DNA of 64,000 bases from contig CAMFLR010000001.1 of assembly GCA_945957605.1 (NCBI GenBank), positions 1,116,001 through 1,180,000 on the forward strand, read 5' to 3'. A model generated the notes under the pieces. The model was not told where the DNA came from and made no database searches. It worked only from the letters and a program-made list of their open reading frames with translations. The translations under genes and the position numbers were made by a program. This DNA is from an uncultured Isosphaeraceae bacterium. GTDB lineage: Bacteria; Planctomycetota; Planctomycetia; Isosphaerales; Isosphaeraceae. This document shows, piece after piece, positions 13,094 through 15,858 of this stretch; within the stretch, counting starts at the first letter, position 1; each line of letters begins with the position of its first letter.

Positions 13094-14830
13094 GTGTCCC
13101 CGAGTGCTGGGACTTCCGCAGCCCTGCCCGCAAGCGAGCCTAGCGGCTACACCGTCGTCGCTCGCCGCTACCGTCCGCAACGCTTCGAAGACGTCGTCGG
13201 CCAGGACCATGTCGTCCAGTCGCTGCGCAATGCAATCCGTCTCAATCGAGTCACCCACGCCTACCTTTTTAGCGGTACGCGCGGAGTCGGCAAGACGTCG
13301 ATTGCCCGCATTTTCGCCAAGTGCCTGAATTGCGTGCACGGCCCGACTGAAGAACCTTGCAACACATGCGACATTTGCCAGGCGATCTCGCTCGGGCAGG
13401 ACGTCGATGTGATTGAAATCGACGGTGCCAGCAATAACGGTGTCGAAGCGGTTCGCGAGCTGCGCCAGAACGCCGGACTACGCCCCAGTCGGTCGCGATT
13501 CAAGATCTATTACATTGATGAAGTTCACATGCTTTCAACAAGCGCATTTAATGCGTTGTTGAAAACACTCGAGGAACCTCCCTCGCATGTGAAATTTTTC
13601 TTTGCGACGACCGAACCGGGCAAGATTCCCATTACGGTGCTCTCGCGTTGTCAGCGTTACGACTTCGCCGGCATCACGCCTGATCAAATCGCTGAAACGT
13701 TGGCGGGCATTTGCGAACGCGAAGGGATTCAAGCTGATGGCGAGGCGTTGCGCACGATTGCCCGCCGCGCAGGCGGTTCGATGCGCGATTCTCAGTCTCT
13801 CCTCGAACAACTTCTGTCGTTCGGCGGTGATCGACTGACGGCCGATCTCGTCCACCAGCAACTCGGCATTGCCAGCGACGAACGAACGCTCGACCTTCTT
13901 GACGCGCTCGCCGAGCGCGATGCGGCAAAAGTGCTCGATCACATCGACCGCGCGGTCGCTTCGGGCGTGCAGCCAGTCGACCTGCTTGACGGCGTGCTCG
14001 AATTCCTCCGCGACGCGATGATTCTCGCCGCCGGGGCGAATGCGGCATTACTCGCCGCAACTCCTCGCCAGCGCCCGCGAATTCAGACACTCACAGAGCG
14101 CTGGCCGCTCGACACGATTCTCGCGGCGCAGCAGATTCTCGCCGAATGCCGTGGCAAGCTCCGCGGTAGCCCATTCAGCCGGCTACTTGTTGAAGTCGCG
14201 CTCGCACGTGTCGCACGGCTGGAGTCGATGACCGAACTGAGCGAAGTCATCGCGCGGCTTACCGCGATCGAAAGCGATTCACCATCAACGATTGGTGGAA
14301 CCGCCGAAAAAAAAAAGGCCCTAGCGCCTGAGCCTCAGTCATCTCCGCCACCGCGACCAACACCAGCGCCGGTTCGGGCGGCGGATCCAGCGCCTGCTAT
14401 CGTTCCGCAACCGGTGGCATCGGACAGCAGTCCTGCCTGGGAAATTGCCTCAATTCAGGCTGCCTGGCCGGGATGGGTTGACGGGCTAGAGCCTGACTTA
14501 TCGACGAAGCTTGCTCGTTGCGCCCCGGCGGCAATTGCAGGGCCCGGCCAACTGGTCATCGCATTTGATCGGGCCTACAATTGGGTGGCCGACATGTGCG
14601 ACACGCTCGAGGCTCGCACGCGGATCGAATCGAAAGTGGGTATGTGGCTAGGTAAGCCAGTATCCATCCGCATCGATCGTCCCCCCGAGGAGCCGCTACC
14701 TCCATCGCGGACTGCGGTTGCGATCTCGCGGGACGAGGCGCTCAAGGACGACCCGATGATCAAACAGATCGTCGAGCTTTTCGAAGCGAAGGCGATACGC
14801 GTTGACGTTGAAGACGACTCGACGTCCTGA
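13094..14830 (+). CDS. dnaX: DNA polymerase III subunits gamma and tau
   Basis: Clamp-loader ATPase of 578 residues. The AAA+ domain has the P-loop GTRGVGKTS (about 56-64), four zinc cysteines in CLNC and CNTCDIC, Walker B YIDEVHML, a SRC sensor region and LLKTLEEPP. A Pro-rich linker follows near residue 410, then the tau-specific C-terminal part. Translation starts at GTG 13094-13096. A run of ten A (14307-14316) spans codons 405-408; one added A leads to TGA at 14328, one lost A to TAG at 14321, giving products of 412 or 409 residues resembling gamma. The gene follows the SRP RNA and precedes ybaB and recR, a common replication-repair arrangement. Confidence 0.97.
   Translation: MSPSAGTSAALPASEPSGYTVVARRYRPQRFEDVVGQDHVVQSLRNAIRLNRVTHAYLFSGTRGVGKTSIARIFAKCLNCVHGPTEEPCNTCDICQAISLGQDVDVIEIDGASNNGVEAVRELRQNAGLRPSRSRFKIYYIDEVHMLSTSAFNALLKTLEEPPSHVKFFFATTEPGKIPITVLSRCQRYDFAGITPDQIAETLAGICEREGIQADGEALRTIARRAGGSMRDSQSLLEQLLSFGGDRLTADLVHQQLGIASDERTLDLLDALAERDAAKVLDHIDRAVASGVQPVDLLDGVLEFLRDAMILAAGANAALLAATPRQRPRIQTLTERWPLDTILAAQQILAECRGKLRGSPFSRLLVEVALARVARLESMTELSEVIARLTAIESDSPSTIGGTAEKKKALAPEPQSSPPPRPTPAPVRAADPAPAIVPQPVASDSSPAWEIASIQAAWPGWVDGLEPDLSTKLARCAPAAIAGPGQLVIAFDRAYNWVADMCDTLEARTRIESKVGMWLGKPVSIRIDRPPEEPLPPSRTAVAISRDEALKDDPMIKQIVELFEAKAIRVDVEDDSTS
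14306..14330 (+). promoter_or_regulatory. Candidate dnaX slippage site (A10 run)
   Basis: Ten consecutive A (14307-14316) occur exactly at the junction between the clamp-loader core and the tau extension. Both alternative frames hit a stop within 5 codons (TAG 14321-14323; TGA 14328-14330). Thermus dnaX makes gamma by transcriptional slippage on an A9 run and E. coli by -1 ribosomal frameshifting on AAAAAAG; either mechanism is conceivable here. A short CTGAG/CTCAG stem lies just downstream, too weak to decide. Confidence 0.6.
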
Positions 14831-14893: not shown

Positions 14894-15247
14894 GTGTTCA
14901 ACAACCTCGGCGGCCTGACCGACATGATGCGGAACATGGGTAAAATCCGCGAAAATATTGAAAAAGCGACCGAGGCGCTCGGGCAACTCGTCGTCGAGGC
15001 CGAGTCGGGCGGTGGAAGCGTTCGGGTCAAGGCGAACGGAAAGCTCGAAATCCTGTCCATTCGCATCGACCCTAAACTGATGGGCGAAAACGACCTCGAT
15101 CTCGTCGAGGATCTTGTTACGGCTGCCGTTAATCAGGCGCTGAACAAGGCGAAAGAGGCTGCCGCGCAATCGATGTCGAGCATCGCCGGCGGTCTCCCGA
15201 TCCCCGGTCTCAACAGTCTGTTTGGCAGTCCTGGAGGAGGTAGCTGA
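14894..15247 (+). CDS. ybaB: YbaB/EbfC nucleoid-associated protein
   Basis: A small DNA-binding protein of 117 residues that forms dimers and is linked to recombination and replication genes. Hallmarks are the N-terminal helix LTDMMRNMGKIRENIEKATE and the central strand-rich VRVKANGKLEILSIRIDP, followed by LVEDLVTAAVNQALNKAKE. The C-terminus is a Gly/Pro/Ser-rich tail. Starts at GTG 14894 with GAGGAAG upstream. It lies between dnaX and recR; the recR start follows 2 bases after its stop, so co-translation is likely. Confidence 0.94.
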   Translation: MFNNLGGLTDMMRNMGKIRENIEKATEALGQLVVEAESGGGSVRVKANGKLEILSIRIDPKLMGENDLDLVEDLVTAAVNQALNKAKEAAAQSMSSIAGGLPIPGLNSLFGSPGGGS

Positions 15248-15249
15248 CG

Positions 15250-15858
15250 ATGGCGGCGAGCCGCTTGGATGCCCTTGACCGCTTGATCGAAGCGTTCGGC
15301 CGGTTACCAGGAGTCGGAGCCAAGAGCGCGGAACGCCTGGCCCATCACATCTTGAAGAGTCCACCGCAAGAGGCACTCGCCTTGGCGGAGGCGCTACGCG
15401 ACGTGAAAGAACGCGTCCGTCACTGCCAGATTTGCTACCACCTGACTGAATCCGCCGAAGACACTTGCACAATTTGCAGCGACGCATCGCGTGATGCAGG
15501 TTTGGTTTGCGTCGTCGAGCAGTCGCGCGATCTCCTCGCTCTCGAGCGTGCAGGCTCTTATCGGGGGGTGTATCACGTCCTCCTTGGCCGCCTCGCGCCC
15601 CTCCAAGGGACCGGTCCTGATCAACTGACGGTCGACGGCCTCGTCGAACGTGTGCGTCAGGGATCGGTCCGCGAGGTGATCATGGCAACGAACCCGAATC
15701 TCGAGGGCGACGGGACTGCGCTGCTCGTGGCAAACCGGCTCTCGGACACGGGCGTTCCCATTACCCGACTCGCGCGGGGACTTGCCTCAGGCAGTGTGCT
15801 CGAGTTCGCAAACAAGGAAATGCTTGCCGATGCATTCGCTGGCCGCCAACGATTTTGA
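15250..15858 (+). CDS. recR: Recombination mediator RecR
   Basis: RecFOR-pathway protein (202 residues) that helps load RecA at gaps. The helix-hairpin-helix RLPGVGAKSAERLAHHIL (about 16-33), a four-cysteine zinc finger with CQICYHLTES..DTCTIC (about 56-72), and the Toprim domain starting at LVCVVEQSRDLLALE are all in the expected order; LEGDGTALL supplies a Toprim acidic region. It is the third gene of dnaX-ybaB-recR. Confidence 0.97.
   Translation: MAASRLDALDRLIEAFGRLPGVGAKSAERLAHHILKSPPQEALALAEALRDVKERVRHCQICYHLTESAEDTCTICSDASRDAGLVCVVEQSRDLLALERAGSYRGVYHVLLGRLAPLQGTGPDQLTVDGLVERVRQGSVREVIMATNPNLEGDGTALLVANRLSDTGVPITRLARGLASGSVLEFANKEMLADAFAGRQRF

Follow-up and report, generated by a model that had tools for sequence, protein, structure and literature searches.

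Ten consecutive adenines in the dnaX gene of an Isosphaeraceae bacterium as a putative Thermus-type transcriptional slippage site, kept in many Planctomycetota

Why should the clamp-loader gene dnaX of an uncultured Isosphaeraceae bacterium carry ten consecutive adenines (A10) close behind the sequence for the clamp-loader core, and could a second, gamma-like product arise there from the gene encoding tau? The production of gamma by bacteria, and their need for it, are known from few model species. In Escherichia coli, gamma results from programmed −1 ribosomal frameshifting on the dnaX message. Another precedent is transcriptional slippage at the dnaX gene of Thermus thermophilus (Larsen et al., 2000; described in PMC1088944 and PMC5009743). 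Judging from the gene itself and from its relatives among Planctomycetota, we regard the A10 as probably a programmed slippage site of the Thermus type (a probability of roughly 0.84), at which a gamma of approximately 44.5 kDa would be made beside tau.

The window, i.e., the whole 64-kb stretch of DNA analysed, contains dnaX at positions 13094–14830 of the forward strand as a single zero-frame open reading frame of 578 residues, corresponding to tau (62.5 kDa). The GTG start at 13094 is an assumption that affects lengths only. The product matches NCBIfam TIGR02397 (E = 4e-134) and contains the Pfam domains DNA_pol3_delta2 (residues 36–192), DNAX_ATPase_lid (198–245) and DNA_pol3_gamma3 (249–388). 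The host genome has one full-length copy of dnaX, and the usual dnaX-ybaB-recR cluster continues on the same strand with ybaB/ebfC (14894–15247; Pfam PF02575, E = 9e-27) and recR (15250–15858; Pfam RecR_HhH and Toprim_4).

A preliminary description had placed ten adenines at codons 405–408 of dnaX, where the clamp-loader core ends, with stops in both other frames within five codons. The run indeed lies at 14307–14316, within codons 405–408 (GAA AAA AAA AAG). Because the Pfam match to domain III ends at residue 388, the run lies 16 residues past this domain, in a proline/alanine-rich linker ahead of the tau-specific C-terminus. Both shifted frames do close within five codons, although the coordinates first given for the stops, TAG at 14321 and TGA at 14328, were one base early. 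The TAG (14322–14324) follows one codon beyond the run codons and would be reached after the loss of one A or the gain of two, giving computed products of 409 and 410 residues, respectively. The TGA (14329–14331) follows four codons beyond them and would be reached after the gain of one A, giving 412 residues (44.6 kDa). With ten A's, the zero frame stays open for 170 codons beyond the run and yields the 578-residue protein. The translation places the remaining linker and the tau-specific C-terminal region at 14332–14827, and both would be absent from the slippage product.

In the proposed scheme, RNA polymerase would realign on the homopolymer, and the resulting dnaX mRNAs would hold ten A's or a smaller or larger number. 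Messages with 10 or 10 + 3n A's would encode tau of 578 residues or slightly more, while the others would end at the TAG at 14322 or the TGA at 14329, yielding a gamma-like protein of 409–412 residues (about 44.5 kDa). By its computed length, such a protein would keep the ATPase core and domain III and lack the tau C-terminus. The gene has every feature of Thermus-type slippage that can be sought in a sequence, namely a sense-strand run of at least nine A's beyond domain III, nearby stops in both non-zero frames and full-length tau in the zero frame, and it lacks the stimulators of the E. coli type.

The A10 is the sole run of nine or more A or T in the window. In dinucleotide shuffles, an A10 turns up on average 0.11 times per window, so the run by itself is only mildly unusual. 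Pattern searches of the 8.84-Mb host genome found three A10 sites including the one in dnaX, and no convincing gene around the other two. By the same kind of search, the A10 of dnaX is the only A10 on either strand in 10 of the 37 family genomes of 5–10 Mb (G001, G002, G008, G018, G020, G021, G024, G025, G031 and G033). A possible nascent-RNA hairpin (TTCACCA...TGGTGGA, 14278–14299) ends 7 bases 5′ of the run, and the 60 bases upstream of the run have a folding z of −2.2. Hairpins directly upstream of a run could influence polymerase slippage, but this one is probably incidental, since the family shows no such signal.

The case for slippage comes mainly from relatives. We scanned distinct dnaX loci of Isosphaeraceae and other Planctomycetota for runs around the point where domain III ends. 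Runs of at least nine A's occur at this place in 26 of the 33 Isosphaeraceae genes sampled, in 30 of 36 from other families of the same class and, over the phylum at large, in 18 of 91 sampled from other classes; these genes are related, and the counts are therefore not independent samples. The Verrucomicrobiota dnaX genes retrieved by the same search showed no A-run. In a tree computed from the DnaX sequence ahead of the run, presence and absence change at least 21 times, indicating that the run was repeatedly lost or regained. As alternative homopolymers, the run-less relatives contain just two G9 and one C8 (L179, L262 and L210). Since some relatives do without the run, gamma made by slippage is not universally needed. 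Seven members of one family (f27; L213, L215, L220, L221, L225, L229 and L232) have DnaX frames of only about 420–490 residues without an A-run, and tau may be truncated there or produced in some other way. Two further loci (L048 and L049) carry two successive A9 runs in the linker (CAA AAA AAA ATT GAA AAA AAA AGT).

The nucleotides of the run, and not the residues encoded by them, are what is conserved. All three codon phases occur, with at least 21 phase changes on the tree of run-bearing genes, and the peptide at the run differs accordingly among relatives (EKKK, VKKN, QKKT, SKKK, etc.) with varying flanking residues, while the A-run persists. The lengths are narrowly distributed: the 103 runs of at least eight A's comprise 60 A10, 39 A9 and four A8, and no run exceeds ten. 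This is about the length, nine A or T, at which slipping by bacterial RNA polymerase is highly efficient (review PMC5009743).

The shifted frames close just as consistently. Stops within eight codons close both of them in 64 of 85 run genes (75%), at a median distance of 4 codons in the −1 frame and 2 codons in the +1 frame. Random positions in the same linkers are closed in this way in 6% of cases, with a maximum of 14 of 85 genes in 20,000 draws, and the corresponding figure for linker positions of run-less planctomycete dnaX genes is 4%. Counted across these genes, the effect far exceeds what the non-independence of related genes could explain. Messages that have gained or lost A's enter both frames, and transcriptional slippage consequently needs both closed, whereas a −1 ribosomal shift enters one frame and needs just one closed. 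Both shifted frames are likewise closed in Thermus (PMC5009743).

A single genus (g15) illustrates the joint loss of these features. One of its members (L024) has TTA AAA AAA AAG with nearby stops. Paludisphaera soli (L016) encodes nearly the same peptide by GCC AAA AAG AAG; both nearby stops are gone together with the run, and the shifted frames go on for 210 and 78 codons before a stop. Comparison at the level of the genes shows selection on the run, on its two flanking stops and on its length. The preliminary description had suggested selection for slippage and, as a check, aligning the dnaX genes of planctomycetes. In our comparison, most relatives belonging to the class have the run in the corresponding position, and the pure-A codons, the variable phase and the closure of both shifted frames support the suggestion.

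Eleven planctomycete dnaX genes have the reversed layout (L109, L111, L118, L123, L128, L181, L228, L242, L244, L250 and L263), with a zero-frame stop 0–10 codons past the run. Using a tau C-terminal profile built from the C-termini of the normal run genes, we found matches only in the frame to which an additional A leads (E = 1e-6 to 2e-31), and none in the other two frames of these genes. As their reading frames stand, these 11 species can only reach tau by slipping at the run. The dnaX gene in the window has no zero-frame stop right after its run and belongs to the normal layout. On the run-gene tree, the two layouts interchange at least six times, and three of these changes are forced by well-supported branches. 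It is conceivable, though we hold it only tentatively, that constitutive slippage in the run-bearing Planctomycetota leaves the templated frame past the run almost free to drift, so that single-base changes would swap tau-templated and gamma-templated layouts with neither protein being lost. If true, an essential replisome gene would be without a fixed reading frame over evolutionary time.

The most serious competitor to polymerase slippage is the E. coli dnaX mechanism, a programmed −1 shift of the ribosome at A_AAA_AAG that would make gamma, with the long run being no more than a rich slippery site. The heptamer is in frame in the gene studied here, where the −1 stop follows 4 codons later, and all 11 reversed genes need the very −1 shift that ribosomes would also give. 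Yet the heptamer is in frame in 36 of 99 run genes and missing from the other 63, and nine to ten A's are conserved though six or seven would suffice. Nor would a −1 shift need closure of the +1 frame, whose stops follow as closely as those of the −1 frame. We also found no sign of the customary stimulators: Shine-Dalgarno-like motifs precede the run in 6 of 88 run genes against a background of 9.4%, and folding around the run in 88 genes has a mean z of −0.23 upstream and −0.04 downstream compared with a background of −0.24 (mononucleotide shuffles). The downstream folding z of the gene in the window is +0.8 by the same shuffling, which does not indicate a stem-loop stimulator. The host, moreover, has a tRNA-Lys(CUU), and 35 of 38 genomes in the family match the Lys tRNA pattern, with CUU in nearly every case. 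For Thermus, the review PMC5009743 proposes that possession of a distinct tRNA-Lys for AAG may tip the balance from ribosomal shifting towards polymerase slippage. Here this is permissive evidence, as tRNA-Lys(CUU) is also present in run-less family members. We consider ribosomal frameshifting unlikely as the explanation of the run, although the in-frame A_AAA_AAG means that it could contribute in this gene.

Three other readings appear far less probable still. If the run merely encoded a Lys-rich linker peptide and had no role in decoding, one could point to the basic residues retained in some run-less relatives (KKK in P. soli, RRK in L033). However, the peptide changes with the phase while the A-run stays, lysine is preferentially encoded by AAG elsewhere in the run-bearing genes (862 of 1257 Lys codons), and KKK is never encoded by pure A in the run-less linkers. 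Such a reading also leaves the flanking stops in both frames unexplained, as well as the shift required by the reversed genes, and the sequences compared already contradict it. It is similarly improbable that the run is a phase-variable contingency tract switching the gene at the DNA level through replication slippage. Homopolymers are mutable, and the coexistence of tau-in-frame and gamma-in-frame layouts among relatives implies that single-base insertions or deletions became fixed within the run or directly beside it. On the other hand, switching off tau would kill the cell if, as expected, the protein is essential, and the lengths are confined to 9–10 across deep branches. The shifted frame of the reversed genes, furthermore, has stayed open and tau-like over long evolutionary time, so that tau must come from the sequence as templated. 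An assembly or sequencing error can hardly be credited either. Long reads are error-prone at homopolymers, but A9 or A10 recurs in independently sequenced genomes, among them those of finished isolates, e.g., Singulisphaera acidiphila DSM 18658, and the open reading frame studied here is intact at A10; for the class as a whole, an error is already contradicted.

Transcriptional slippage remains the reading that we prefer, and of the two parallels drawn in the preliminary description, the one with Thermus fits better and the one with E. coli less well. As in Thermus, a run of 9–10 A's lies past the clamp-loader core, tau is in the zero frame, stops are near in both other frames and a dedicated tRNA-Lys for AAG accompanies a truncated gamma-like product, which is predicted in our case. 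The two differ in phylum and in the run, A9 in Thermus and A10 here; in Thermus, the RNA heterogeneity and the gamma:tau ratio are measured quantities, whereas gamma in the planctomycete is predicted from sequence. With E. coli, our gene shares the same end result, i.e., gamma from the tau gene, and the in-frame A_AAA_AAG. It differs in the lack of a conserved Shine-Dalgarno motif or stem-loop, in the closure of both shifted frames, in the presence of tRNA-Lys(CUU) and in that the heptamer is missing in most relatives. A reversed two-ORF dnaX layout is known from other bacteria, in a set with nine A10 genes (Antonov et al., 2013; PMC3711429). Those genes resemble the 11 planctomycete ones, which reach tau only by a −1 shift, in having a run of ten A's in the same kind of place, and differ from the gene in the window, where tau is in the zero frame; Planctomycetota have both layouts in neighbouring lineages.

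The mechanism is already known. Its conservation on the scale of a phylum is what we did not find in the literature searched, which included few subscription papers and not the supplement of Antonov et al. (2013), and we found no description there of dnaX slippage in Planctomycetota. In this phylum, lineages with the run, without it and with the reversed layout can be followed next to one another. Where the layout is reversed, tau cannot be made except by slippage, and sisters that lack the run, P. soli among them, serve as natural controls, making slippage in a replisome gene directly testable in culturable species.

Two other sites in the host genome may be mentioned. An A9 (L279:1501–1509; G000:C13:232944) was considered as a second slippage gene, as one extra A would fuse two overlapping open reading frames. 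We rejected this candidate and read the A9 as an ordinary gene boundary because in relatives the downstream protein has a gene of its own, whose frame is open over about 450–600 residues. Elsewhere (L337; G000:C2:265130–268296), a dense array of 25 tRNA genes with divergent sequences, which score low with the tRNA model and include Lys ctt and ttt, exists beside the scattered ordinary tRNA genes and resembles the tRNA arrays of mobile elements.
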